37,733 bases of DNA from Clostridia bacterium DTU084 (GTDB taxonomy: Bacteria; Bacillota; DTU084). The translations under genes and the position numbers were made by a program. Below are positions 4,028-37,436 of the stretch, one piece after another. The first letter of the stretch is position 1; each line of letters opens with the position of its first letter. The stretch is taken from assembly GCA_001512905.1 (NCBI GenBank), contig LFTB01000075.1, positions 1 through 37,733 of the forward strand. Direction: 5' to 3'. The notes under the pieces were generated by a model, which ran no database searches, was not told where the DNA came from, and was given only the letters and a program-made list of their open reading frames with translations.

Positions 4028-5946
4028 CAGCTGATCTTGCTCCCTGCTGGCATGCTGCTGTCAACTGTCAGGAGGGTAAGCTGCTTTTTGTTGTCTGTTG
4101 AAGCTGCAAGGAGCATTCCTTCAGAGACAATGCCCCGTAATTTGGCAGGTTTCAAGTTGGCCACCACAACCACCAGTTTCCCTACAAGCTCTTCAGGTTT
4201 GTAGTATTTTGCGATCCCGGCAACGATCTGCCGCTGGCCTGAACCCAAATCAACTTTCAAACATAAAAGTCTGTCTGCTCCTTCCACTTTCTCAGCTGCC
4301 ACTATTTGGCCAACCCGCAGGTCCACTTTGGCGAAGTCCTCGATGCTGATAAGGTTTTCCGGCAATTTCGCCTCTTCAATTGGTGCTGCATCCACCTCAG
4401 TTTCATCCTCTTCCTCTTCGATCCTCGGAAAGATGGGTTCTCCCCTGTTAATTTTGGTCTCTGCAGGGAAAAGACCCCAAGTGCAGGCATCTTTATATGT
4501 CTGTTCTTCTAAAGGAATAGTCAGCCCAAGCTGTTCCCAGATTTTACCAGGCAGCGTCGGCAGGAACGGTACCAAAAGCACTGCTGCGATCCGAAGGGAT
4601 TCGGCGAGGTTGTATAAAACTGTGGAAAGCTTTCCGCTTCCCTCTTTTGCCAGGGACCAGGGGGCTGTGTTTTCGATATACTTGTTTGCAGCATCTATCC
4701 CCCGCCAGATCTGTTCCAGTGCTTGATGGAAGGCCAATTTGTCCATAGCAGCTTTAACAGCTTTCGCACCTTCAATACATTCAGTCTTCAGGTACTCGTC
4801 GTGCTCAGTTGGCTCTGCAGGCGGAAGCACCATGCCCTTTTGAAATTTGTTGATCATGGCTGTTGCGCGATTTAAAAGGTTGCCCAGATCATTTGCCAGT
4901 TCTGAATTAACCCTGGCGACAAAAGCAGAGTGAGAAAAGTCGCCGTCTGCGCCAAAGGGCACCTCTCGCAGGAGAAAGTACCGCACGGCATCTGCGCTGT
5001 ACTTTGCCGCGATCTCACCGGGATCGATCACATTGCCCCTGGACTTGGACATTTTCTCCCCTTCCACAGTCCACCAGCCGTGGCCGAAGACCTTTTTGGG
5101 AAGGGGCAGCCCAAGGGCCATGAGCACAGCTGGCCAGATGACAGTGTGAAAGCGCACGATCTCCTTGCCCACGAGGTGCACATCACAAGGCCAAAACTTT
5201 TCGTAAAGCTCCTGGTCGGAAGAGAATACACCTAGTGCTGAAATGTAATTTATCAGAGCGTCCAACCAAACGTAGACCACGTGGCCAGGAGCTTTGGGCA
5301 CAGGAACACCCCAAGTGAAGGTTGTCCTGGAAACGCAGAGGTCTTCAAGGCCGCTTTTGATGAAATTAAGCATCTCATGCCGTCTGCTCTCCGGCTGCAG
5401 AAATTCCGGGTTTTCGGCAAAAAAATCCAGGAGGGGCTGCTGATATTTGGAAAGGCGGAAAAAGTAGCTTTCCTCCCGGACCCATTCCACAGGGCGGTTG
5501 CAGTCAGGGCACATTCCTTCATTCAGCTGCCCTTCAGGCCAGAAGGACTCACAAGGTGTGCAGTACCAGCCTTCGTAGTTGCCCAGGTAAATATCGCCCT
5601 GCTCCATCAGGCGCTGAAAAACCTCCTGTACTACTTTTTTGTGCCGCTCTTCTGTTGTGCGGATGAAGTCATCGTAGGAGATTGAGAGCTTCTGCCACAT
5701 CTCCTTAAACGATGAAACGATCCCGTCAACGTATTCTTGAGGAGTTTTGCCCTGGCTTTCCGCCATCCGGGCGATCTTTTGGCCGTGCTCATCTGTGCCG
5801 GTTAGAAAATAGACATCGCAGCCTTCCAAGCGCTTGAAGCGCGCCAGGACATCGGCAGCGATGGTGGTATAAGCATGCCCGATATGAGGTTCACCATTGA
5901 CATAATAGATGGGTGTGGTCACGTAATATGTTGGGCGCCCACTCAT
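4027..5946 (-). CDS. metG: Methionyl-tRNA synthetase with C-terminal tRNA-binding domain
   Basis: 639 residues; charges tRNA-Met with methionine in the cytoplasm. The class I signature HIGH is at residues 21-24 and KMSKS at 298-302. The zinc knuckle has two CxxC pairs (C129/C132 and C146/C149). The anticodon-binding helical domain follows at about 350-510, and an EMAP/Trbp111-type OB-fold starts near residue 535 (SIEDFAKVDLRVGQI). An acidic linker at about 505-530 joins them. The start ATG has AGAGGG upstream and lies about 40 bases downstream of a strong promoter. It is the first gene of metG-tatD-HAD-trkH. Confidence 0.98.
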   Translation of the reverse strand: MSGRPTYYVTTPIYYVNGEPHIGHAYTTIAADVLARFKRLEGCDVYFLTGTDEHGQKIARMAESQGKTPQEYVDGIVSSFKEMWQKLSISYDDFIRTTEERHKKVVQEVFQRLMEQGDIYLGNYEGWYCTPCESFWPEGQLNEGMCPDCNRPVEWVREESYFFRLSKYQQPLLDFFAENPEFLQPESRRHEMLNFIKSGLEDLCVSRTTFTWGVPVPKAPGHVVYVWLDALINYISALGVFSSDQELYEKFWPCDVHLVGKEIVRFHTVIWPAVLMALGLPLPKKVFGHGWWTVEGEKMSKSRGNVIDPGEIAAKYSADAVRYFLLREVPFGADGDFSHSAFVARVNSELANDLGNLLNRATAMINKFQKGMVLPPAEPTEHDEYLKTECIEGAKAVKAAMDKLAFHQALEQIWRGIDAANKYIENTAPWSLAKEGSGKLSTVLYNLAESLRIAAVLLVPFLPTLPGKIWEQLGLTIPLEEQTYKDACTWGLFPAETKINRGEPIFPRIEEEEDETEVDAAPIEEAKLPENLISIEDFAKVDLRVGQIVAAEKVEGADRLLCLKVDLGSGQRQIVAGIAKYYKPEELVGKLVVVVANLKPAKLRGIVSEGMLLAASTDNKKQLTLLTVDSSMPAGSKIS

Positions 5947-13481: not shown

Positions 13482-14753
13482 TTAACGCAAGCCGAGTTCG
13501 AACAACACAGATCCTGTACGCTGTGCGTAGCCTAGCTGCCAATAGAAGCAGTGGCCATCTTTCCGCAATTTGATCTCCCACTGCGCTTTTTCCCGCAAAT
13601 CCTCAAGCTTATCTACTGACAGCTGCCATGGACCTTTTGTCAGCTGGCTGGAGAAGAGAAAATCTGAGCCGCCTGTTATCCTGTCGTGTTTGAAGGGGGA
13701 TGCGCCAGAAACTTTCCTATAGCTGCCGCCAACTGAAGCTGCAAAACTGTACTCTCCAAGCTGCCAGCTGCTGCCTAGAAGGCCTGTAATGGAAAAAGCA
13801 AGCTGCGCATCTTCAGTATACCGGGCGAAAGAGGTGAAGCTAGTGAACTTAAGCAGCCAATTTCCAAGTTCCTTTTGGACAGCTGCATGGGTTTGCCAGC
13901 GCAGCCGCCGATCTGCCACAGCTCCCTCCCTTAAATTGCCCAGTGAGAAATTTTGCCTGACCGAAAAAAGTCGAAAATTCTTCTGGAAGCTGTAGCTCAA
14001 CTCAGGAAGTTTTACCAAAGCCTCATCCAACTCACCAGTCCACAACTCCCGCTCTGCTACCAGCTGCCATGGCCCTGAGCGGAAAGATGTGCCTCCCCAA
14101 AACTCTCCCTCCCAGCGAAGGGAAAAGTCCAAAGAGGCAGCGCCCTTTTCATACGTCACCTTCTGGCCGAGGATTGGCCCCTTTCTTTGCGAGAGAAGGA
14201 CAGTTAAGCTGCCGTGTCTGTTGTCATCATGAAAATTGGGAATGACAAGCCCTCCCCACAGGCCACGAGTGCGAGAACTTCCCAGCTCCGGCCTTGGCAG
14301 GGGGAGCTTCGATCCTGCGGGCAGGCTCAGCGAGGGCAGAGGAATAGCAGGGAAGTTGAACAGATGGAGTCTGTTGCCCTTCAAAAAGATGCGCTCGGGG
14401 GTTATGCTAACCTGTCTGCTGGCAAGGAAGTATTCAGGCTGAGAGAGACTGCAGCCGGTGAGCTGAGAGTCATAAAGCTCTGTTTGCGAGGGTGTGGCTA
14501 AAACTTTCCCGGCTTTCAAGAAAAAGCCAGCTGCCTCTCCCCTCACCTCTCGCAGCCGCGCGCTCTCGTCTGTGAGGAGAAAATCGCCTTCTTCTGCCTG
14601 CAGCTTCAAATCCTCTCTCGTAAAAAGGACTGAGCCCGAAGCCCGGGCCCGATTCTCTTGAGGAATGTACTCCAGCCTGTCAGCACTGAACTGCCAAGGG
14701 GCAGCTATAGCTTGTGCGGCGAACAGCAACCAAAGAATCATTTTGTGCTTCAT
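13482..14753 (-). CDS. lptD: Short LptD/OstA-like LPS assembly outer-membrane protein
   Basis: 423 residues, about half of E. coli LptD. A signal peptide (residues 1-18, AIA-A cleavage) is followed by an OstA-type beta-jellyroll (about 20-85: FSADRLEY and SGSVLFTREDLKLQAEEGDF). Then comes the linker typical of LptD (LTGCSLSQPEYFLASRQVSI, with the lipid-facing C and P) and NRLHLFNFPAIPLPSLSLP. Residues from about 165 to 423 alternate in a beta-barrel pattern (many W/Y/F at every second position). Only two cysteines are in the mature protein, C101 and C402, one in each half. It ends FELGLR. By family it inserts LPS in the outer leaflet with LptA/LptC. A secondary role as another OstA-domain barrel is possible. 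Confidence 0.75.
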   Translation of the reverse strand: MKHKMILWLLFAAQAIAAPWQFSADRLEYIPQENRARASGSVLFTREDLKLQAEEGDFLLTDESARLREVRGEAAGFFLKAGKVLATPSQTELYDSQLTGCSLSQPEYFLASRQVSITPERIFLKGNRLHLFNFPAIPLPSLSLPAGSKLPLPRPELGSSRTRGLWGGLVIPNFHDDNRHGSLTVLLSQRKGPILGQKVTYEKGAASLDFSLRWEGEFWGGTSFRSGPWQLVAERELWTGELDEALVKLPELSYSFQKNFRLFSVRQNFSLGNLREGAVADRRLRWQTHAAVQKELGNWLLKFTSFTSFARYTEDAQLAFSITGLLGSSWQLGEYSFAASVGGSYRKVSGASPFKHDRITGGSDFLFSSQLTKGPWQLSVDKLEDLREKAQWEIKLRKDGHCFYWQLGYAQRTGSVLFELGLR

Positions 14754-14816: not shown

Positions 14817-15734
14817 CTAGTTGTTCAAAACAAGCCCAATCACTTCAACTGGTTCGCTAACTTCCAAAGCAAGCTCTGTGCCTTGAGGAATCAGCAGCTG
14901 ATTGCCCCTGACAGGAATGCCGAAAAGGGCACCGTAGAGTTTGCCGGTGAGCAAAAGGCCGCCCATGGAAAGCCCAACAGCAAGCCGCAGGGGCTGCTCG
15001 TCCTTCTCCTGGAGCTTCGTCCGCGGCACTACCGGCACTGCAGTACCGTCAAGGGCCTTGATGGTGCCGAAATCAATTTCCACAGAGCCTGATTTGCCAA
15101 AATAGCCAGCCATTGAAACACTTACTATCCTACCCTGGCCGTATGTGCCTGCAGGGATCAGGAGCTGACCAGCATATACCACATCCCGGATTACCCGATA
15201 ACGAACAAGCTGTCCTGGACTGACTTTACCGTTGTCGATGGTGGTTAAGAGCTCAACGTCAACAGGCGTCCACTGCCTGAGAACAGCCTTGTTTGTCGAC
15301 AGCTTCTCAGTGCCAAAAGCTGCCCTTAAGAGCTTTTCCACCCGCTGCTTGAGGGAGCCTTCACCAATCTGCGTTTGGCCGAGGAAAGCTGCTTCGATGG
15401 CTGTCAACCGCCGAGACATGGGCAAGCTGCTCTGCTCTTTGAGAACATGCCATTCTAAAGCGTTCAGCTGAAAGGTGAGTGCCTCAGCCCCAGGCCCGAA
15501 GACGAGATCCCGGAGCTCAAAAAGACGAGTTAACGTAGCGCCTTGTTTTTCTGCGCCTGTCAGATCCACCTCAAGGTCTGCGAGCCTTTCCACTAGCGCA
15601 CCGCTTCTCTTCAGGCCGTAAACCTCCTCTTCCAGCTGTTCGAGAAGAGAACCGGAAAGGTCTGCGATAGTCGCTGCACTGGCAAGTCCAAAGGAGAACA
15701 AAATAATGAGTAACAGAAATGCTGCTCTTTTCAT
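14817..15734 (-). CDS. Secreted protein with LxxRLxxLE-type repeats, unknown function
   Basis: 305 residues with a clear signal peptide (residues 1-20, ending ASA-A). The N-terminal half contains imperfect units of about 21 residues with a consensus of L-E-x3-(Y/T/F)-G followed by L-x2-R-L-x2-L: examples are LEEEVYGLKRSGALVERLADLE and LLRAAFGTEK. The C-terminal half is beta-rich (about 155-300) with VSPGQLVRYRVIRDVVYAG and LIPAGTYGQGRIVSV, resembling the surface-exposed beta domains of periplasmic channel or secretion proteins, but I do not recognise a family. The start ATG has AAGGTGATTAG, and the upstream barrel gene ends 11 bases before. Position between two outer-membrane proteins argues for a periplasmic or outer-membrane accessory role. 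Confidence 0.7.
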   Translation of the reverse strand: MKRAAFLLLIILFSFGLASAATIADLSGSLLEQLEEEVYGLKRSGALVERLADLEVDLTGAEKQGATLTRLFELRDLVFGPGAEALTFQLNALEWHVLKEQSSLPMSRRLTAIEAAFLGQTQIGEGSLKQRVEKLLRAAFGTEKLSTNKAVLRQWTPVDVELLTTIDNGKVSPGQLVRYRVIRDVVYAGQLLIPAGTYGQGRIVSVSMAGYFGKSGSVEIDFGTIKALDGTAVPVVPRTKLQEKDEQPLRLAVGLSMGGLLLTGKLYGALFGIPVRGNQLLIPQGTELALEVSEPVEVIGLVLNN

Positions 15735-15745
15735 CTAATCACCTT

Positions 15746-16714
15746 CTAGAAGCGAATTGTAAGCTCTGCTGCAGTTTGCCCGCCTTCAGCAGGAGATTGC
15801 TGCTGTCTGTAGCCTAACTTGAAGAAAGCCTGGGGCTGAAAGTAGTAGCCGAGGCCAAAGCTCCCGACGAGCTTTGATATCCCCAGCCCATCCACTGCAC
15901 AATCTACAACAAGCTTTCCTCCTCCGGGAACTTCAAATTCAACAGCAGCTTTGGCCTGGCTTTTCTCCCAGACAAAATCGTCAGGCTCCTTGCTGCCGCT
16001 GAAAAAGAATCCTGCTGAGATCTGCGTTTTTTCTAAACTGGGGATCCTGGCGTTGAAGCCAATCCGCGCTGCAGTCAGCAATCCTGCCTTGTCATCGAGG
16101 AGTGCGTCCAAATCCACAAACTCCACCCCTGCCTTCAGCAGCGCAGAATTTGCGATCGCGTAGTTCAGGTCAAATTTTGTTGCCAAAAGACTGCGCTCAA
16201 CCTCAGGCCTTTTTTTCAAAGGTTTCTCCAGGCCGGGCAATGCTTCCAGCTTTGCTTTTGGCTCGCCGACCAAATCAATGGAAGTAAGGAGCTCCAGCTG
16301 GTTTGCTTGAATGGATAAATCGTAGCGTTCCAATTTCAGCTCTGGATTGGAAAGAAAATTATGGTTGGCTGAAAATCCTGCTTTGATGGCCACCTGGCCA
16401 AACCGCCAGTTGGTTCCCAGCCTGAGGCCATCCAGCTTATAATATTCCGAACCCAATCTCTCCTCTGAGCTTTCCTGATCAGCAAGCTGCAGCTGGGGAA
16501 AAACTTCAGCGTCCTTGGGGAGGGAAAAACTGGCTACAAGCTCTGCGCTGTCTGACAAACTAGCCCTAGCCTGAAAAGCTTGCTCGTCCAAGAGCCACCG
16601 ATCTACATCTTCAAACTTTAAAATCCCTGCCCTGCCTGCCGCGCTGAAGTGGATGATATGTAGCAGCGCGAGTAAAATAAAAATAACAGGCCTGTATCTA
16701 CTGCAGCGGGCCAT
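15746..16714 (-). CDS. Predicted outer-membrane beta-barrel protein
   Basis: 322 residues from the preferred ATG at 16714. An upstream in-frame ATG at 16732 contains GAGGAGGAG, which is instead the ribosome binding site for 16714, and the 16714 start overlaps the preceding stop as TGATG. A signal peptide covers roughly residues 1-27. The remainder shows alternating hydrophobic strands (LRLGTNWRFGQVAIKAGFSAN, ARIGFNARIPSL, TQISAGFFFSG, LVGSFGLGYYF, AFFKLGYRQQ) and ends in phenylalanine (ELTIRF), the classical C-terminal signal for insertion by BamA. No named family recognised. It may be a small porin or an LPS-assembly partner. Confidence 0.7.
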   Translation of the reverse strand: MARCSRYRPVIFILLALLHIIHFSAAGRAGILKFEDVDRWLLDEQAFQARASLSDSAELVASFSLPKDAEVFPQLQLADQESSEERLGSEYYKLDGLRLGTNWRFGQVAIKAGFSANHNFLSNPELKLERYDLSIQANQLELLTSIDLVGEPKAKLEALPGLEKPLKKRPEVERSLLATKFDLNYAIANSALLKAGVEFVDLDALLDDKAGLLTAARIGFNARIPSLEKTQISAGFFFSGSKEPDDFVWEKSQAKAAVEFEVPGGGKLVVDCAVDGLGISKLVGSFGLGYYFQPQAFFKLGYRQQQSPAEGGQTAAELTIRF

Positions 16715-17157
16715 CAAGGCTCCTCCTCGCATTTTTTCCTTGCTTCAAGGTAGCGTTCAATCAAGATTAAAGCTACATATTCGTCATAAGGTTCCGGAGG
16801 CACCCGCATGGACGTGGGGATAAGCCGCCAAATTCCCCTGGCAGGCTTTTCCTGCCAATAGCGCCTGCGGGCTTCAAGGCTTGAGTTGCGCTCATCTACG
16901 TAATTGATCTCGATTTTAGATGAAAAAAAGTTGTTCAGGCGTTGGAAAATTGCTTTTTTGCCCGTCCCATCGCCTAACACAACTTTCTCAAGAGGCCATT
17001 GCGCAAGAAGCTGCCTCAGCTCTTCCTCCAACTGACTGACTGCAATTACTTTTCCATAAAGCTTTTGGCAGCCCCCAGCTGAATGGTAAACCAGGGCGAG
17101 CCCGCATTTGGCTCGCCCTGGATCAATGCCTAAGATATATTTGCCGTTAGAACGCAT
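16714..17157 (-). CDS. YqgF/RuvX-like RNase H-fold protein
   Basis: 147 residues. GIDPGRAKCGLAL at the N terminus, VVLGDGTGK near residue 60, VDERNSSLEARRRYW near 87 and PYDEYVALILIERYL near the C terminus place candidate acidic active-site residues in the order seen in YqgF/RuvC-type nucleases. It is therefore a possible nuclease related to the pre-16S rRNA maturation factor YqgF, but it is not the standard short RuvX and may be a paralogue. Its ATG lies inside the last codons of the SLH porin gene (11-base overlap) and its stop overlaps the start of the barrel gene. This coupling to two outer-membrane genes is odd for a nuclease. Confidence 0.75.
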   Translation of the reverse strand: MRSNGKYILGIDPGRAKCGLALVYHSAGGCQKLYGKVIAVSQLEEELRQLLAQWPLEKVVLGDGTGKKAIFQRLNNFFSSKIEINYVDERNSSLEARRRYWQEKPARGIWRLIPTSMRVPPEPYDEYVALILIERYLEARKKCEEEP

Positions 17158-19339
17158 AGAACAAGTCTACGCAGAGCCGATCCATAGTTTTCAGCTCACC
17201 AAGCTCGTTTCCAGCTGTGTCTTTGTTAGAGCCGAAGTTGTCGTAGAAGACCCGCAGTTTAGCACCTGCGATCTGGGTGCCCCAACCTAAAGTGAAGTAG
17301 CGGTCTTTGCTGTCATCCAGATCCAGATTGCTGCTGCCTTCGACCAAACGCCAGCTGCCAAAGAAGCCTGATGTCTGAGAAATTGGTCTTTCCACTAAGA
17401 CGGAGCGTTCTGTGCGGTTGCCCACTACCACATCAGCTGTCAGATCCTTGATCTTCTCAAAGGTGAAGCCAGTGGTGACATAATAGTTGGGCAGGGCAAA
17501 GTTGGCCAGATCAAAGGTGTATTTCATGCCAAAACCTACAGTAGCCTCACGTGTGCCGGTTTTGGGATTGTGATCGTATTTCACGCCACCTGTAGCCAGC
17601 ATGTCTGAAATGATCTGGTATCTAGCTGTAGCGCCCACTGCCAGGTGCTGCTCATCTGGATGCCAGAGGCGAGCCAGAGAATCAGCAAGGGCTGGGGAAG
17701 CATCAGCAAGGGCTGGGGAAGCGCTGGGGAAGCTCAGCTCGTCGAAATCCCCTTCCCACTCGCTGCCTCCTGCCAAGGCCTGGAAGAAGAGGTTCAGATC
17801 CAGTTTGTCTGCAGGCCTGATCCCGCCGAGAACAGCGTCAAGTGAGAGTTTGTTTTGGTAGGGATATGCATCGTCCCTGCCAAAGCGCTGGGCAGCACCC
17901 AGGGTAACACCCAGCGGATAGCCTTCCACCACAAAGAGGCGGTTGGCAGTTGCCCTGATGATCCTGTGGGTGTGCTCGTGAGCTGCCCCCTCCTTGGTGG
18001 TTTGCAGCTTGTAGCTTGCTTCAAGGTCCACGGCGTAGGGAAGTGTAGTTCCGCCCACAAGCTCTTGAGTGTGGATTGCAGCTTCCGAATAACGCTGCAC
18101 ACGGGAAATGAAAGTTACTGGTGCGCCACTGATGAGGAGTCCCAGCTCCCGATAATTGCGCAGCGCAGGATCGCCTAATTGCCCTGTGTAGCGATCCCCT
18201 AACAGGATCCTGTTTGCATAAACGCCTATGTCAGAGCCCAAAGAGAGGTAAGAAACGCCAACCTGATACTTATCCAGCTGGGCCAGGCCGTTGAAGCGCA
18301 GAGAGCGCGGCAGGCGGCTCTCGGAGCTGCCCACAAAACCGGCGAGGTTTCCAGCCAGGTTAGCCTTGGATTCAGGCTGAACGTTTACATTCAAGTCAAA
18401 GCCTAAAGCAAGGCTTGGACCTGAGAAGAAGAGATCGTTCTGGCCCAAGGAAAGCCAGTTGTTTGGAGCATCTGGGTAGATCCAGAAATTCTCCTGATCG
18501 TAAGTATTTACGCCTTCGGAAATGAGGCGAGCAGCCAAATTTATGCGGTATTTGTTCAGTTTGTTTTCAATGGCCGTCAGCCGCTCGTCGTGATTTGCCA
18601 CAGTTGCTTCCAGCTGGCCGATCCGGCTTTCGTGATCTGAAACTGTCTCCTGAAGCTTGGCTACATCTTCAGCTTGAGAGGAGAGCCTCTTCAAATATTC
18701 TGCTGCCTCGTCGCTGCCAGAAGCAGTAATGCTCAAGAGATCAACCTGCTTCTTCAGCTCCTCCATCATGTCGCATTTCTCTGAGATCTTCTTTTGGAAA
18801 GAGCGGAAGTCATCCTCCAGGGCAGCAAGCTTGCTTTCCAGATCCGTTACTCTGGTATCCAGCTTTTGGCACAGAGCGAGGAGTTTCGCAGCGTCAACGC
18901 CCAGCTCTCCCAATTCGGGAGAAAGCTCTTCTGTCAGCTTCAAGAAGCCATCTAAAGCCTCCTTGACTTTAGCCTCTGCGATCTCCTCTGCTTCAGCCCG
19001 GGAGATCAGCTCCCCTGCTGCCAGTTTTTCTGCCAGCAGCTTCTGCAGAACATCCTCAACGGAAACTTCGCCGTCAAGTTCGATGTATTTTTCATCCAAT
19101 ACATCGATCATTTTTTGCCAGGCGCGGTGCACAACCGCAGCTAGCTCGTAACGGGTAGCAGGCCGATCGCCCTTGAATTCTCCATCGGGGTATCCCAAAA
19201 TTACCCCCATCTCTGCTAGGCTTTCGACATGGACGTTTGCCCAATGGCCTGTTTTCAAATCAGGGAATGAGCCTGCTACAGCTGGCAGCGTTGTTGCAAA
19301 CATTGAAACAACGAGTAGAACTGCCAATAATTTTCGCAT
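17147..19339 (-). CDS. SLH-domain, coiled-coil, beta-barrel porin (OmpM-like)
   Basis: 730 residues. Signal peptide 1-22; one SLH motif at about 24-75 (FPDLKTGHWANVHVESLAEMG, then GYPDGEFKGDRPATRYELAAV); a long coiled coil at about 120-270 with many heptads; and a beta-barrel from about 275 to the C terminus, ending in DLFYAF with the terminal phenylalanine. This is the architecture of OmpM/Slp proteins in diderm Firmicutes, cyanobacteria and Thermotogae, where the SLH domain binds the cell wall and tethers the outer membrane. ATG has GGGAGG seven bases upstream. A seven-residue tandem repeat lies in a predicted loop (17681-17722). Expression is probably high, given the promoter region and structured leader. 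Confidence 0.92.
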   Translation of the reverse strand: MRKLLAVLLVVSMFATTLPAVAGSFPDLKTGHWANVHVESLAEMGVILGYPDGEFKGDRPATRYELAAVVHRAWQKMIDVLDEKYIELDGEVSVEDVLQKLLAEKLAAGELISRAEAEEIAEAKVKEALDGFLKLTEELSPELGELGVDAAKLLALCQKLDTRVTDLESKLAALEDDFRSFQKKISEKCDMMEELKKQVDLLSITASGSDEAAEYLKRLSSQAEDVAKLQETVSDHESRIGQLEATVANHDERLTAIENKLNKYRINLAARLISEGVNTYDQENFWIYPDAPNNWLSLGQNDLFFSGPSLALGFDLNVNVQPESKANLAGNLAGFVGSSESRLPRSLRFNGLAQLDKYQVGVSYLSLGSDIGVYANRILLGDRYTGQLGDPALRNYRELGLLISGAPVTFISRVQRYSEAAIHTQELVGGTTLPYAVDLEASYKLQTTKEGAAHEHTHRIIRATANRLFVVEGYPLGVTLGAAQRFGRDDAYPYQNKLSLDAVLGGIRPADKLDLNLFFQALAGGSEWEGDFDELSFPSASPALADASPALADSLARLWHPDEQHLAVGATARYQIISDMLATGGVKYDHNPKTGTREATVGFGMKYTFDLANFALPNYYVTTGFTFEKIKDLTADVVVGNRTERSVLVERPISQTSGFFGSWRLVEGSSNLDLDDSKDRYFTLGWGTQIAGAKLRVFYDNFGSNKDTAGNELGELKTMDRLCVDLFYAF
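17681..17722 (-). repeat. Perfect 21-base tandem duplication in the porin gene
   Basis: Positions 17681-17701 and 17702-17722 are identical 21-mers, with a partial third copy directly after. In frame they encode ASPALAD twice in an alanine/serine-rich surface-loop-like part of the porin. Because the unit is a multiple of three, gain or loss of copies would keep the reading frame. Confidence 0.9.
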
Positions 19340-20707: not shown

Positions 20708-21808
20708 TTACCTCCCACTTTTCCAGAGCAGATAAATCCCCCAGCCGCCGAGGACGAAGTTCACCAGCCAGACGCTTATGCTTGCAGGAAGCTGGCCTCC
20801 TTCTCCTAAAGAAGAGCCTAAACTGAGAATCAAATAGTAGACGAAAATGATCACTACAGACTGGCCAAAGCCCTTGCTAGACGCTGTACGATGGGATTGA
20901 ATTCCCAAAGGAGCTCCAACCAGCACGAAGACGAGACATGCCAAGGGAATAACCATCTTCTGCTGCCAGAGCACCTCCAGTTTTTTTACATCTTCCCCCT
21001 GTTTGCGGAGAAAGGCAATTTGCGCTTTCAGCTCCCACCAGTTCATTTCCTCAGGCCTTTTTTGCTGCTGAGCGATCTGGCGGGGCTCCACAGACAACGG
21101 CAGGGGCTGGCGGACAGAATGAAAGCTGGCAGAAACCACCCGGCCGTCCTCTAAATATTCATATGCTTCTGCCTTGGAATAATACCAACTGCCCCGATCC
21201 CAAAAAATCTGTCCTGTTTTTATGGTGCGGCGGAGCTCTCCAGCTTCGAACTCCTGCACCACTGCATCTTCCATTACCTGCCGGATGTTGTCGTAAACTT
21301 TGGCATACAGGAGCCTGGTAAGCTGGCCGTCCTTGTAATCCCGGAGGATCACGTTCTGGAGCACCTGAGGTCCTGTTTTCTCCTGGGCCAGGAGCTGAAT
21401 GCGGGCAGAATTGGCCTTGGGGACGATCAGCTCTCCCAAAACAAACCCCAGAATGCTCAAGGCAAGGCCCATCCAAAGCACTGGCTTTACTATCTGCTTC
21501 CTGCTCACCCCGCCTGCTTCCATGGCAACGATCTCGCTGTTTGCAGAGAGCCGGCTCAGGGTAAGGAGCACTGCCATTAAAGTGGCCATTGGCAGGACGT
21601 AGTAAAGGATCTGGGGCAAGTTCAGGAAAAGAAGCTGACCCAGCTGGAAAGTGCTTAACTTCAGCTGGTTGCCAATTTTTGCCAGCTGCAGAAGATCTGT
21701 CCCCACATAGAGGCTAGCAAAGGCTGCCAGAGAAAAAACAAACGGGCCTGCTAGTTCCTGATAAAGATAGCGCGGCAGGATTTGCATCTTTCTGTATCTT
21801 CCAAACAT
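20708..21808 (-). CDS. lptF: LptF/LptG family LPS export permease (single subunit)
   Basis: 366 residues with the YjgP/YjgQ layout: three N-terminal membrane helices (about 15-125, containing LSANSEIVAMEAGGVSRKQI), a periplasmic beta-jellyroll of about 140 residues (about 135-275) and three C-terminal helices (about 285-362). With LptB it extracts LPS from the inner membrane and passes it to LptC. Only one such gene is present, so the permease is probably a homodimer, or the second subunit is elsewhere. Two start options exist, ATG at 21808 and an ATG seven codons later; neither has a strong ribosome binding site. LptB lies 31 bases upstream. Confidence 0.93.
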   Translation of the reverse strand: MFGRYRKMQILPRYLYQELAGPFVFSLAAFASLYVGTDLLQLAKIGNQLKLSTFQLGQLLFLNLPQILYYVLPMATLMAVLLTLSRLSANSEIVAMEAGGVSRKQIVKPVLWMGLALSILGFVLGELIVPKANSARIQLLAQEKTGPQVLQNVILRDYKDGQLTRLLYAKVYDNIRQVMEDAVVQEFEAGELRRTIKTGQIFWDRGSWYYSKAEAYEYLEDGRVVSASFHSVRQPLPLSVEPRQIAQQQKRPEEMNWWELKAQIAFLRKQGEDVKKLEVLWQQKMVIPLACLVFVLVGAPLGIQSHRTASSKGFGQSVVIIFVYYLILSLGSSLGEGGQLPASISVWLVNFVLGGWGIYLLWKSGR

Positions 21809-21839: not shown

Positions 21840-22556
21840 CTAAAAACGAAAGCTGTCTCCCAAATAGTATTTGCGGGCAATGGGATCTTCTGCAAGCTCA
21901 GCTGCAGAGCCTGAGGTGAGGATCTTCCCGTTGTGCATGATGTAAGCCCGATCCACAATGGAGAGGGTTTCCCGGACGTTGTGGTCAGTGATCAAAATGC
22001 CAATTCCCTTTGCTTTCAACTTTACAATGAGCTCCTGGATGGCTGCCACAGCTATTGGATCCACACCGGAGAAGGGCTCATCCAAAAGCAGGTAGCCTGG
22101 CTCCAAAGCCAAGGCTCTTGCAATCTCTGTGCGCCTGCGCTCTCCTCCTGAAAGCTGATAGCCGAACTGCTTTCTAATCTGGGTCAGATCAAACTCGCGA
22201 AGGAGGTTGTTCAGGCGCTGGTCTTGCTCAGCTGGAGAGAGGCTGCTGAGCTGGAGGATGGCCAGGATATTCTCTTCAACTGTGAGCTTGCGGAAAACAG
22301 AAGGCTCCTGGGCCAGGTAGCTGATGCCGAGCTTTGCCCTTTCCCACAAGGGAAGCCCTGTTACATCAGCCTCCTCCAGGAAAACCCTTCCTCCCTCTGC
22401 CCGTTCAAGGCCAACGATTAGGTAGAAGGTAGTGGTCTTGCCTGCTCCATTTGATCCCAACAGGCCAACCACTTCCCCTCTGTTGACCTCAAGATCCACG
22501 CCAGAGACCACCTTGCGGCCGGAAAAACTTTTTTCAAGGCCAACTGCCTGAATCAT
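21840..22556 (-). CDS. lptB: LPS export ABC ATPase
   Basis: 238 residues, standard for LptB. Walker [11 protein letters not shown] near residue 34, Q-loop [16 protein letters not shown], signature [15 protein letters not shown] near 136, Walker [13 protein letters not shown] near 157 and the H-loop [11 protein letters not shown]. The DHNVRETL and FSGVDP combinations are typical of LptB rather than other ATPases. It powers LptF/G. The ATG overlaps the lptA stop as ATGA, so the two are translationally coupled. Confidence 0.97.
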
Positions 22557-23095
22557 CTTTCCCCTGCCTCAACTTCCACAAAAGCGTCTTCCACCAGGAT
22601 CTTCTCCTGGGAAGTCGAGAAGGTAATGCTCTTGCCTGAAATACGCTGGCCCTCCTGCAGAAGCAGGGGTTTTTCAGTGAGGACGATCTCTTTTCCATTT
22701 CCTGTCAAAAGGCCTGCTGTGGCTTTCACCTCTCCCCTTTCCACCACCACAGAGCCTTTGGCTTCAAACCGTTCAGAGCGGGGCCAGAAGCGCAGCTGGC
22801 TGCAGGTGATGACAAGCGGAGTTTCGTCTTTACGAACAACCTTCACTCTTCCCTCAACCACCACAAGGTCTGCCTTCTCATCCCAAAGGACTTGGCTGCC
22901 TGCCAGCTCCCAATCGTTGTAGGTCACAAGCACAGGCTTTTCTGCTGTGCCGTAGCTGCGGGTGATCTGCTCTTTGAGGGAATACTCGATTTTTTCAGCT
23001 TTTATGGTGATTTTGGGTGCTTGTGCCTGCGCACAGGACAAAAAAATCAAAAAACAGGTGAAAAAAATCAGCGTCCAGCGCCTGTAGTTGCCCAT
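22553..23095 (-). CDS. lptA: LptA/OstA-family periplasmic LPS transport protein
   Basis: 180 residues with a signal peptide at about 1-25 (cleavage after AQA). The OstA domain covers most of the rest: [68 protein letters not shown]. By family it forms part of the periplasmic bridge that carries LPS between LptC and LptD. The ATG lies within the last 28 bases of lptC in another frame, and its stop overlaps lptB. Confidence 0.88.
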
Positions 23096-23607
23096 AACTG
23101 TACACCGCCTTCGACAACTAATTTACCCTGGGGTTGTTGCCAGGTGAGCTTTTCCCCTAAAAGCCTCGTTGTCTTTGTTGTAACCTCAACGCCTCCCTGC
23201 CCTACAAGCTCTTGGGCCTGGGCGTGCCAGCTTAAAGAGCCGGCAACAATGGAAAGCTCTCTGCTTCTCACCTTCACAGGGCCTGTGAAGGTGATGTCCT
23301 GCCTCTGCCAATCAATGCTGGCTTTGGGAGCTTCCACTGCAATTTCCTCATCTTCTGCTGCAAGCCTCCCGCGCAGCCCCAGAACTTCAGCAGTTTTGCC
23401 GTCCTCTGCAAACTGGATCTTTTCTGCTGTAAGCTGCCACTTCACATCCCCTGTGGGGCTAACCAGCTGCAGCGAGGGAAGCTCAGCCTGCCAGGACTGA
23501 GGTTCCTCTTTTTGAGGAGGCGTTTGGGGCTGGGGGCGGAGCCAAAGAAGGAATGCGGAAAGCAAGATCAGCCCTCCGCAGATCAAAACTGCTATGCGCT
23601 TGTGCAC
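23068..23607 (-). CDS. lptC: LptC-family LPS export component
   Basis: About 179 residues with one N-terminal membrane anchor (RIAVLICGGLILLSAFLLWL) and an OstA-like periplasmic jellyroll (LVSPTGDVKWQLTAEKIQFAEDGKTAEVLGL), as in LptC. Two starts compete. TTG at 23622 has no ribosome binding site, whereas GTG at 23607 follows GGGGTGG by six bases, so I choose 23607. It lies directly after the lpxB-related gene and overlaps lptA, in the order lptC-lptA-lptB-lptF/G that is standard for LPS export. Confidence 0.85.
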   Translation of the reverse strand: MHKRIAVLICGGLILLSAFLLWLRPQPQTPPQKEEPQSWQAELPSLQLVSPTGDVKWQLTAEKIQFAEDGKTAEVLGLRGRLAAEDEEIAVEAPKASIDWQRQDITFTGPVKVRSRELSIVAGSLSWHAQAQELVGQGGVEVTTKTTRLLGEKLTWQQPQGKLVVEGGVQLWATTGAGR

Positions 23608-23623
23608 CTGAAACCACCCCAAG

Positions 23624-33965: not shown

Positions 33966-36380
33966 CTAACTGCCACCCTTCCTGCCGAGGATTACCTTTC
34001 TTTGGTTGAGAATTTGCATGATCCCGGGTCTGGCTGCTGGAATAACGATCTGCTGCAGAACCTCGCCGCCTGTAAGGCCCATGGCCTCGCCTGCCACCAT
34101 CTCATCCCTGTTTATAGGACTGAGCTTTTCTGCAAACAGCGCAGTGAAGAGGCCAAAAGCAGCACCCAAGAAGATGACGCTGCTTCTGGGCACCAGAGGC
34201 AGCTGGGCGCCAGTGAGAAGGGTCATTCCCCAAAGGAGGAGGGCACCTGTACAGCTGCCGTACAAATACGGCAGTGCTGCTTCCAGCCTGCGCCGCTTCT
34301 GCCGCTTGTGCTGGTGGTTCCGGCTCCAGAAGCGGAAGGCAGCGATGAGAGTTGCATGGTCGAAGATCAGGGTCAGGATCGTCACCAGCACCACGAAAAT
34401 GGCAGCGATTGTAAGGCGCACCTCACCTAGAATCCGCATCACTTCAGAGCGCATATTGGGTTTGACAAGCCCTACCTGCATGCCGTATAAAGTGACCAGG
34501 TCGCTGTCCAGCTGCTCCCTGACCAAAGCCTCTGTCTTTTTGAGGTCTATCCCCTTTCCCACCATTAAGCTCACTTTTTCTGAAGGGGCTGCTTCCCCTT
34601 CCAAATACTGATCCAAAAGGTTCAAGGAGCTTGTGATCTGCTCGTCGCTGAGCTGAGGCAGCGCGCGCTGGAGCTTGTCTGCCTCCTGGGCAATTCCTTC
34701 CAGATCTATTTCCTTAAAGGCTTTCGCCCTTTCAGCTACCAGCTCCAAACTGGGCGCAAAGACTGAGGGATCCACAGCGTCCATTGCAGCTGTGAGCTCT
34801 TGTGTTGCTGCAAGGAGCCTGGCTACCTGCTCCCGCCTGCCTTCTCTGTCTGCTCTTAGAAGGGACAAGATTTCTTTTGCGATGCTGGTTCGCCAGCTTT
34901 CAAGCTGCGGCGCTAAAGGGCCTAAGGAGTCGTCTGCACCGCTGATGAGCTTTACCGCAGCCACAAGTCCTTCCAGGTTGGAACGCAGGGGATGGGCTGG
35001 AGGAGTCATGGCCAAGATTTTCTCTAAATTTTCTCCCAGCTGGGAATAAGTCTTTGTGGTTTCCTCTTCTTTGGCAAGCAGCTGGCCTATTTTAGAGCTA
35101 GTTGCGCTGGCAGCTTCCATCAGCTCGTCCAGATCCTCCTGCCTTATCCTTCCCAAAGGGCTTGCCAGAAGCTGATGGAGCTTTGTCAGCAATGCTTCGA
35201 TCTGCTCGATTTGCTCTTTGGTGTTTTGGAATGTTTCGATGGTAGCAAGGCTTGCCCTGGCAGCTGCGTCTGCCTCTCTGCTGGTGCGGGCAAGCTCTGT
35301 CAGGAGCTTCTGGCTTTCGCCTAAAGAATTACTCAAGAGAATTCTGTTGTTTTCTAAGGAAACTTCCCCCACTCTGCCCTCGACTACCCCCCCAGCAAGG
35401 AGGTATGCGTCCAGTTTTTCTCTGCCGTCAGCGCCAAGGAGCTTTTGGGAGTTGCCTTTTTGGATAATTCCGGTGGCTTTTCTGCCGCTGATGCTTTTTA
35501 TCTCAACAACCAAACTTCCTTCCCCAGGCGGCTCCCCTACGACATTATCGCCTCCAAAGACAATGAGGCTGCCTCGCTTGACCTTGCTCTGGGTCGCAAG
35601 AGCCACTTCCACTTTGGTGCCGTAGCTCTCCAGAAAGCCTTTCAGCTGGCTGAGGGTTTCCATTAAGCTGTCCATGTCCTGGTTTCTGCCAGAGGGCGAT
35701 ACATTCCGCACCTGCTCCCCTAACTCCAGAGACAGTGCTTTTGCCAGCTGATCGCCTAAGGCTTTGGGATCAACCTTATAACCCCTGGGAAAGCGCAGCT
35801 CTAGGATTTGGTTTTCTGCCAAGATCTCGTTGATCTCACCGGTTACCTGTTGACTGTATTCTGGTTTGGTCAAAAGAACATAAATTTGTCCCCCTTGCCG
35901 GAAGGCAAAGCGGACGTGATCCAAACGTTCTATTTTTTCAATCAGCTGTCCATAAATGTTTCCCTGTACGCCTTCCACCACTACTGTAGGTTCCAGCAAA
36001 ACTGTATAGCCGCTTTGTCCGGGCAGATCATTGAAATACTTGCCCAGGCTTGAGAACACTTTTTTGGTGATTGCCTTTTGGGGCAGCGCAATGAAAAAGT
36101 TAGCTATGCCGGCAATGGCAATGCCCTCTTTCAGCTTCGCTCCAGGAAACTCTTTCTCCAGCAGCTTCTCAAGCTGTGTCCTGGCAGCGTCTTTTGCCTC
36201 CTGACGCACGTGGAGGAGAAGCTGATACTCCCCATACTCTCCCACCAACCCCGAGAGGGTATCGCCAAAGTAGGTATCCACAGCGTAGGCAACAGCTGAG
36301 GAAAAGCCGGAACCTGCGATGATGGTAACTAAAAGCAAAAGGGCTACATCTTTCAGAAAGCCCTTGCTGAAGTGCTTCAT
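33966..36380 (-). CDS. Large ABC permease-like protein with big extracytoplasmic domain
   Basis: 804 residues from ATG at 36380, which has GGAGG six bases upstream; an in-frame TTG two codons earlier is less likely. Numbering from that TTG: one helix at about 12-35; an extracytoplasmic region from 36 to about 655, comprising a mixed part (about 50-260), a beta-rich part (about 264-355) and a long helical/coiled-coil part (about 360-600). A helix follows at 657-684, a basic loop (HKRQKRRR), helices at 705-726 and 734-752, and a C-terminal segment GEAMGLTGGEVLQQIVIPAARPGI resembling the EAA coupling loop of ABC permeases. The layout recalls FtsX/MacB-type topology. I do not recognise a named family, and no substrate can be given. 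Confidence 0.65.
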   Translation of the reverse strand: MKHFSKGFLKDVALLLLVTIIAGSGFSSAVAYAVDTYFGDTLSGLVGEYGEYQLLLHVRQEAKDAARTQLEKLLEKEFPGAKLKEGIAIAGIANFFIALPQKAITKKVFSSLGKYFNDLPGQSGYTVLLEPTVVVEGVQGNIYGQLIEKIERLDHVRFAFRQGGQIYVLLTKPEYSQQVTGEINEILAENQILELRFPRGYKVDPKALGDQLAKALSLELGEQVRNVSPSGRNQDMDSLMETLSQLKGFLESYGTKVEVALATQSKVKRGSLIVFGGDNVVGEPPGEGSLVVEIKSISGRKATGIIQKGNSQKLLGADGREKLDAYLLAGGVVEGRVGEVSLENNRILLSNSLGESQKLLTELARTSREADAAARASLATIETFQNTKEQIEQIEALLTKLHQLLASPLGRIRQEDLDELMEAASATSSKIGQLLAKEEETTKTYSQLGENLEKILAMTPPAHPLRSNLEGLVAAVKLISGADDSLGPLAPQLESWRTSIAKEILSLLRADREGRREQVARLLAATQELTAAMDAVDPSVFAPSLELVAERAKAFKEIDLEGIAQEADKLQRALPQLSDEQITSSLNLLDQYLEGEAAPSEKVSLMVGKGIDLKKTEALVREQLDSDLVTLYGMQVGLVKPNMRSEVMRILGEVRLTIAAIFVVLVTILTLIFDHATLIAAFRFWSRNHQHKRQKRRRLEAALPYLYGSCTGALLLWGMTLLTGAQLPLVPRSSVIFLGAAFGLFTALFAEKLSPINRDEMVAGEAMGLTGGEVLQQIVIPAARPGIMQILNQRKVILGRKGGS

Positions 36381-36402
36381 TGCCAACCTCCCCCTTGGCT
36401 CG

Positions 36403-36408
36403 ATTATA
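36403..36408 (-). promoter_or_regulatory. -10 element for the ABC system and following lpx genes
   Basis: The minus strand reads TATAAT here, preceded by TGTGT, 22 bases upstream of the start ATG. The best -35 (TTCCAA) is 19 bases away and weak. It is placed just after the trxB terminator, so it most likely begins a transcript that includes the ABC pair, lpxC and fabZ. Confidence 0.6.
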
Positions 36409-36484
36409 ACACAGCTTCCCTAGCTGATTGGAATGTAAATCAAGCCAGAGGAGGCAGATATTCCAAGGTGTGGCAGGAGATTAC

Positions 36485-36513
36485 AAAAGCGGCGCAGCAC
36501 CAAGCTGCGCCGC
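36485..36513 (-). terminator. Strong terminator after trxB
   Basis: GCGGCGCAGC (36489-36498) and GCTGCGCCGC (36504-36513) form a perfect ten-base-pair stem with a five-base loop. On the minus strand it is followed by TTTTG (36484-36488). It lies directly after the trxB stop and separates lpxD-trxB from the ABC/lpxC unit. Confidence 0.88.
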
Positions 36514-36518
36514 GTGTT

Positions 36519-37436
36519 TCAGCTGCCTGCGCCAAGCTCCCTGTCCGCTTCCACAGCAGCGATGGCGCCGTCTGCCACAGCAGTGACGATCTGCCGCAGA
36601 GACTTGGCCCTCACATCGCCTGCAGCGAAAAGCCCGGGCCTGGAAGTGCGCATTCGTTCGTCAGTTGCCAGATACCCTTCGGGGGTGAGTTCCACGAGGC
36701 CAGATAAAAACTCAGTCCTGGGGAGGCTGCCTATGTAAATGAAAACGCCGGATGTGGGAACTTCCTCTATCGTCCCACTTTTCACATCTTTGAGAATTGC
36801 TTTCTCAAGGGAGTCGCCGCCGGCAAGCTCAGTTACCACTTTGTTGTAAAAAAATTTAATCTTGGGATTTGCCTCTGCTTCCTCCTGGACGATTTTAGTG
36901 GCCCGCAGCTCGTCCCTGCGGTGGACAATTCCCACCTGTTTGGCGAAGCGGGTCAGGAAAATGGCCTCCTCCACTGCAGAGTCCCCTCCCCCCACCACCA
37001 AGACCTCTTTATCCCGGAAAAAAGCGCCGTCGCAGGTGGCGCAGTAGGAAACGCCCCCGCCGCGAAACTCGTCTTCCCCAGGGACATTGAGTTTCTTCGG
37101 TGACACACCGCTGGCAACGATCACTTTCTTCGCTGTGTAATTGCCTTTTGAGGTCTCAAGCATAAAGGCTCTGTTCTCTGCAGAGAGGCCAGTCACCTTG
37201 CTGTAGACAACTTCAAGGCCGAGCTTTTTGGCTTGTTCCTCCATTCTGGCTGTCAGCTCGAAGCCGCCGATTTCATCTGGAAAGCCAGGATAGTTTGCCA
37301 CTCTGTCAGTTGTGGCAGCTTGTCCACCTATTCCTTCGCCTTCGAATAAGACAACTTTTCTCCTTGCCCTGGCTGCGTAAAGGCCTGCAGTAAGGCCGGC
37401 CGGGCCGCCTCCGATAATGGCAATTTCAAAGTCCAT
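36519..37436 (-). CDS. trxB: Thioredoxin reductase
   Basis: 305 residues of the low-molecular-weight thioredoxin reductase family, a flavoenzyme that reduces thioredoxin with NADPH. FAD-binding GGGPAGLTAGLYAAR at residues 9-23, redox-active CATC with C132 and C135, NADP-binding VVGGGDSAVEEA near 147, and the C-terminal FAD motif FAAGDVRAKSLRQIVTAVADGAIAA. ATG immediately follows the lpxD stop (TAGATG), with GAGGTG just upstream, so it is coupled to lpxD. Why a cytoplasmic redox enzyme sits in a lipid A operon is not explained. Confidence 0.96.
   Translation of the reverse strand: MDFEIAIIGGGPAGLTAGLYAARARRKVVLFEGEGIGGQAATTDRVANYPGFPDEIGGFELTARMEEQAKKLGLEVVYSKVTGLSAENRAFMLETSKGNYTAKKVIVASGVSPKKLNVPGEDEFRGGGVSYCATCDGAFFRDKEVLVVGGGDSAVEEAIFLTRFAKQVGIVHRRDELRATKIVQEEAEANPKIKFFYNKVVTELAGGDSLEKAILKDVKSGTIEEVPTSGVFIYIGSLPRTEFLSGLVELTPEGYLATDERMRTSRPGLFAAGDVRAKSLRQIVTAVADGAIAAVEADRELGAGS

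Follow-up and report, generated by a model that had tools for sequence, protein, structure and literature searches.

The window analysed here is a 37,733-nucleotide stretch of DNA from Clostridia bacterium DTU084. The gene of interest, which we call lptD-S, lies at 13482-14753 and is the final gene of an intact lipopolysaccharide (LPS) operon, which runs from lpxC to lptD with gaps of no more than 158 bases and many overlaps. LptD is the outer-membrane protein that places lipopolysaccharide on the cell surface. The operon begins with lpxC, fabZ, lpxA, lpxI, lpxB, an LpxB-like gene, an msbA-like gene, a nucleotidyltransferase gene and a further LpxB-like gene. It then continues with lptC, lptA, lptB, lptF, a DUF3084 gene, an SLH-bearing ompM, yqgF, a barrel gene, the gene of a 305-residue protein (p305) and lptD; several of these names were assigned by sequence reading alone. 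The gene is thus linked both to LPS synthesis (lpxC-fabZ-lpxA-lpxB) and to the Lpt pathway (lptC-lptA-lptB-lptF). Farther on, the contig also carries lpxD, ompH-like genes, bamA and tamB. The features used below are as follows.

13482-14753, minus strand: lptD-S, a small LptD of 423 residues at the end of the LPS/Lpt operon (ORF, profile matches, AlphaFold2, Foldseek)
14703-14753, minus strand: signal peptide, residues 1-17, proposed cleavage between AIA and A (sequence inspection; model N-terminus of low confidence)
14304-14702, minus strand: OstA/beta-taco jellyroll, residues 18-150; most relatives have a longer one (model strands; alignment gap)
14451-14453, minus strand: C101 codon, equivalent to E. 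coli LptD C173 (alignment with PDB LptD chains; conserved in 151 of 154 proteins)
14295-14297, minus strand: P153 codon, invariant proline directly preceding barrel strand 1 (25 of 25 rows; alignment)
13488-14294, minus strand: beta-barrel, residues 154-422, with 18 predicted strands and periplasmic turns of 2-3 residues (AlphaFold2 model)
13548-13550, minus strand: C402 codon, in the strand 16/17 turn, equivalent to E. coli C725, which is the second residue of the CC pair (model, alignment)
14817-15734, minus strand: p305, exported; helical repeats at the N-terminus, then a beta domain like the VirB10 CTD (synteny, AlphaFold2, Foldseek, weak TrbI matches)
15746-16732, minus strand: porin-like outer-membrane barrel without SLH domain, OmpM-group relative in conserved position (synteny, grouping)
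16714-17157, minus strand: RuvX/YqgF-like protein, a syntenic marker (domain match; synteny)
17147-19339, minus strand: OmpM-type SLH outer-membrane tether (SLH match)
20708-21808, minus strand: LptF/G, the sole one found in the genome (domain match; genome search)
21840-22556, minus strand: LptB (TIGR04406, 338 bits)
22553-23095, minus strand: LptA (domain match)
23068-23622, minus strand: LptC (domain match)
33966-37436, minus strand: thioredoxin reductase-like gene, then an 806-residue permease-like gene, the spot of lptF2-lptD-L-ostA in relatives (synteny)
36519-37436: the thioredoxin reductase-like gene itself, between lpxD and the 806-residue gene (synteny)

The lptD-S reading frame runs on the minus strand from 14753 to 13482, and the opposite (plus) strand carries many stops. 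Its product has 423 residues counted from the ATG and 426 from stop to stop. Since the frame is open for just three codons 5' of the ATG, a longer, mis-started form of the protein is excluded. A preliminary description had placed a 423-residue LptD here without giving its strand; the ORF and the homology set out below agree with it, as the sequence does with its statement that C101 and C402 are the sole cysteines. The protein consists of a signal peptide, an OstA jellyroll and a barrel, and inspection of its N-terminus points to a signal peptide, MKHKMILWLLFAAQAIA followed after the cleavage point by A.

Homology to LptD emerged from profiles of aligned relatives. A single-sequence scan of Pfam and NCBIfam returned no useful model match for the small LptD, p305 or the barrel at 15746-16732, and the Pfam LptD model (PF04453) had no match in the window protein or in its genome. 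Direct searches with the window protein found relatives at E values of 1e-9 to 1e-3, with matches in 9 of 61 genomes including its own; a search for related loci with this protein alone found nothing, and a scan with Selenomonas-like sequences led to Selenomonadaceae. When the profiles were used as queries against crystal and cryo-EM chains in the PDB, an 8-row profile matched LptD chains at E 1e-18. A 25-row profile matched LptD 8h1r at E 7e-23 and 4q35 at about 1e-12 with much of the barrel covered, and 5iv9 was also matched across the barrel. Identity between the window LptD and its relatives in the 25-row alignment is just 14-22%. The OstA model PF03968 was matched by six of the eight aligned relatives and not by the window sequence alone, and strands at residues 21-145 of the AlphaFold2 model show that the OstA/beta-taco domain is present. 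Judging by the profile matches, the small LptD is homologous to characterised LptD far beyond chance.

The AlphaFold2 model, built from the 25-row alignment, reached a pLDDT of 86 and a pTM of 0.71. Its barrel part, from about residue 153 to the C-terminus, comprises 271 residues, in keeping with the earlier label of a miniature LptD, and contains 18 strands (154-160, 164-176 and so on to 415-422), not the 14-16 proposed before. All modelled periplasmic turns are of 2-3 residues, and hydrophobicity alternates in the strand residues more than in shuffled ones, with 31 of 2000 shuffles equally high. P153 is invariant in all 25 rows and aligns with the first-strand proline of E. coli LptD. The best 17 Foldseek matches of the model were all LptD, with E values down to 1e-15, and OccK porins, which are 18-stranded, were also among the matches; TM-scores to LptD were low (0.2-0.4), as expected given the big size difference, and are no proof of fold. 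The 26-strand barrel, a feature of solved E. coli-type structures that homology does not require, is absent here, and the entire class to which this protein belongs (below) is smaller. The simplest reading of the model is that strands are missing from the middle of the barrel while both ends are retained. The low identity, together with the long branch of the window LptD in a tree, might instead reflect a decaying or misassembled gene that has lost its middle. This we consider highly improbable, because the frame is unbroken, the ends are correct, both cysteines are kept, the strand-turn pattern is regular, dozens of Selenomonadaceae have barrels of equal size and the window contains no N runs. 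A truncated gene was accordingly dropped as an explanation on frame, ends and size conservation, and lptD-S is a genuine, unusually small LptD.

The cysteines provide a second structural link to E. coli. In the alignment of the 25-row profile with the PDB chains, C101 falls on C173 and C402 on C725, H401 falls on the first cysteine of the E. coli CC pair, and C31 has no counterpart in the small LptD; thus the cysteine pair of one of the two native E. coli disulfides is kept. The single interdomain pair of the preliminary description can therefore be identified, by alignment, as the C173-C725 pair of E. coli's two jellyroll-barrel pairs (C173-C725 and C31-C724). In the model, C402 sits in the turn that joins strand 16 to strand 17. 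The corresponding turn of E. coli-type LptD, T12, joins strand 24 to strand 25 of 26 and holds both cysteines of the CC pair (there numbered 726 and 727; PMC4353691), and in E. coli at least one disulfide between non-consecutive cysteines is required (PMC10567701). Both cysteines are found in 146 of 154 distinct LptD-like proteins, a set weighted to Selenomonadaceae, so that this fraction is not a count of events. Two of the 154 have lost both, and the six with a single cysteine include contig-cut, frame-split and otherwise odd sequences. In the two cysteine-less LptD-S proteins, L079 (G367) and L169 (G107), TTK and LHS stand instead, so the disulfide is not universal. In the window protein, C101 and C402 presumably form it.

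LptD-like matches occurred in 101 of 399 genomes of the phylum, and diderm Bacillota have two LptD classes, labelled LptD-L and LptD-S in this work. LptD-L is E. coli-sized, with a barrel of 505-637 residues, and is encoded behind a second LptF or fused with LptF; in several genomes its gene lies after this second LptF, between lpxD and an 806-residue permease-like gene adjoining lpxC. LptD-S has a barrel of 232-442 residues and mostly comes after or beside p305, and in family f39 the S-like members beside p305 reach a barrel of 505. The distance between the two cysteines is 301 residues in the window protein, 285-307 in Selenomonadaceae, 259-270 in family f21 and more than 510 in the long class. 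Dozens of S-type barrels from Selenomonadaceae measure 256-276 residues against 271 in the window. A quick tree separated most long forms from the short ones; the window sequence stands on a long branch, and with such long branches its own place in the tree is unsure. Small size and a single cysteine pair are therefore normal for a whole class of LptD in diderm Bacillota including Selenomonadaceae, and the window protein is a compact variant, not a one-off.

Several relatives deserve separate mention. Family f21 (L005, L032, L033, L039, L042, L054, L055 and L056) has LptD-S barrels of 232-239 residues, below that of the window, and the same genomes keep LptD-L. LptF fusions occur in at least three genomes: single ORFs of 1062-1084 residues (L009:16-3267 in G036, L177:1747-4932 in G039 and L178:1887-5075 in G256) encode a complete LptF/LptG permease followed by an LptD-like protein, that is, both ends of the Lpt bridge in one chain, which is perhaps cleaved after export. 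G036 has no LpxC match and keeps only this LptF-LptD-L fusion, which suggests that LptD-L may transport some lipid that is not LPS. In L081, N runs at 735-748 and 5480-5556 break lpxD and bamA in the assembly. The other analysed genome of the window's own class, G001 (72% complete), showed no LptD, p305, LpxC or convincing LptF, which reflects either an assembly gap or loss of the outer membrane.

The genome search for a full-size LptD, proposed in the preliminary description, recovered only the window gene, LptA and LptC, and hence no second full-length LptD in the 86.5%-complete assembly. Nor is the lptF2-lptD-L-ostA module at its usual site between lpxD and the 806-residue gene or lpxC, and the window has no N runs; the module is likewise missing between lpxD and the 806-residue gene in G013. 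The window genome contains one LptF and one LpxC. The S-only genomes (the window, G013, Selenomonas G187, G367 and G399) have one LptF each and LpxC in all, and those checked with both S and L have two LptF, or three in G039. One LptF, no LptD-L at the usual site or elsewhere, and no detectable LptE together make the small protein probably the sole LptD, with a second one possible in the part missing from the 86.5%-complete assembly.

Because many relatives carry both classes, most of them with two LptF, LptD-S might be a paralogue for another envelope lipid or glycolipid, with LPS left to an LptD-L that is lost or hidden in the unassembled 13%. The separation of most S forms from L in the tree, and genomes such as G345 in which LpxC and LptD-L are present and LptD-S was not detected, agree with that division of labour. 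However, the window LptD-S closes the LPS operon downstream of the sole LptF, Selenomonas and the other S-only genomes combine LpxC with a single LptF, and the usual site of the lptF2-lptD-L-ostA module does not contain it. If either class is tied to non-LPS cargo, G036 points to L and not S. We therefore regard this paralogue reading as unlikely. On the computed homology, strand number, cysteine equivalence, operon and absence of LptD-L at the usual site, we estimate a probability of roughly 0.78 that lptD-S encodes a true LptD belonging to a compact class that occurs across diderm Bacillota, most likely the only LptD of this organism.

We then considered possible partners. In the preliminary description, the small barrel was suggested to be incomplete and to form a composite translocon with the neighbouring barrel, whose gene is in the same operon and keeps its place between yqgF and p305. 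The even strand number and the position of C402 in the expected turn suggest, in the model, a self-contained barrel. Moreover, the neighbour groups with OmpM-like or porin-like barrels, including one at the same position with an SLH domain, and its homologues also adjoin LptD-S proteins of about 490-560 residues, so that it is not specific to small LptDs. These two properties make it a poor candidate to complete the small LptD, and beside a still smaller f21 LptD-S (L071) no match to it occurred in the stretch fetched. We dropped the neighbour as a completing subunit on synteny, and we give such a composite very little credence. As judged from homology and context, the small LptD would probably be sufficient alone for LPS insertion in this organism.

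No PF04390 match for LptE was found in the genome, a weak test as the genome is incomplete; LptE was not found in Negativicutes either, according to two earlier studies (PMC5007114, PMC5491611). Many families conserve p305 as the neighbour of LptD-S, and Selenomonas has it nearby; in family f21 no p305 adjoined LptD-S within the stretch fetched. The protein, to which no Pfam family corresponds, combines short helical repeats and a glycine-rich stretch with a C-terminal domain like that of VirB10. Its AlphaFold2 model shows the helical repeats and the C-terminal domain, and Foldseek related it to VirB10, CagY and ComB10. TrbI scores were weak, in 7 of 20 p305 members, and a p305 profile had no credible match in the PDB, so the VirB10 likeness rests on Foldseek and these scores. 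Poppleton et al. suggested, as a possible stand-in for LptE, an uncharacterised protein that Negativicutes conserve upstream of LptD (PMC5491611), and p305 may be its homologue. We infer that p305 is the likeliest accessory protein and a better partner candidate than the barrel at 15746-16732. It is conceivable, and we propose it tentatively, that LptD-S and p305 together make up an LPS translocon that works without LptE and is the usual one in several lineages of diderm Bacillota, with 18 strands, one disulfide and the p305 beta-domain taking the plug or assembly role of LptE.

From these results we infer LPS as the exported cargo, the barrel seam as exit gate, the disulfide, the p305 partnership and, with 13% of the genome unassembled, the sole-LptD status. 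LptB-LptF(G) would extract LPS from the inner membrane, and LptC and LptA would carry it across the periplasm. The short LptD-S jellyroll would dock on LptA and deliver lipid A to the seam of strands 1 and 18, where it would enter the outer leaflet. The C101-C402 disulfide would anchor the jellyroll to the strand 16/17 turn, the role of C173-C725 in E. coli, and the 18-strand barrel is probably too small for an LptE plug. In Veillonella parvula, a proteome study found a homologue of LptD in the outer-membrane fraction (PMC5491611).

In Negativicutes and Halanaerobiales, Antunes et al. (2016, PMC5007114) were unable to identify the outer-membrane part of the Lpt pathway; the 2017 proteome then added one LptD, in Veillonella (PMC5491611). 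Our results suggest that detection is difficult because many such lineages rely on an LptD of half the usual size, which standard models fail to recognise. They also raise the possibility that a barrel of only about 18 strands with a single disulfide suffices to insert LPS without LptE; such a simpler system would allow the functions of the large barrel, of the second disulfide and of LptE to be examined.

Compared with known systems, Borrelia burgdorferi BB0838 is also LptD-like in an organism without detected LptE, but lacks cysteines and has a barrel of greater size, with 31 strands predicted (PMC10353723). LptD-L of diderm Bacillota is homologous and has the same conserved cysteine pair, whereas its barrel is of 505-637 residues, it is linked to a second LptF and in several genomes to the lpxD-lpxC interval, and it was not found in the window genome. 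E. coli LptD, of the LptDE translocon, shares the OstA jellyroll and barrel, the first-strand proline, the C173-C725 pair and a cysteine turn two strands before the end, but has 26 strands, 784 residues, two nested disulfides and an LptE plug, against 18 predicted strands, one pair and no LptE found for the window protein. Negativicutes LptD (Veillonella parvula Vpar_0647 and its Selenomonas homologues, compared through the Selenomonas sequences) differs in its longer N-terminal extension, and in Selenomonas G187 the gene lies far from the LPS cluster. It is nevertheless S-type, with the same cysteine pair and a p305 homologue nearby. In the Negativicutes genome that was checked, LptF occurs once and LptD-L is absent, as in the window genome, and the Selenomonadaceae barrels of 256-276 residues match the 271 residues found here.
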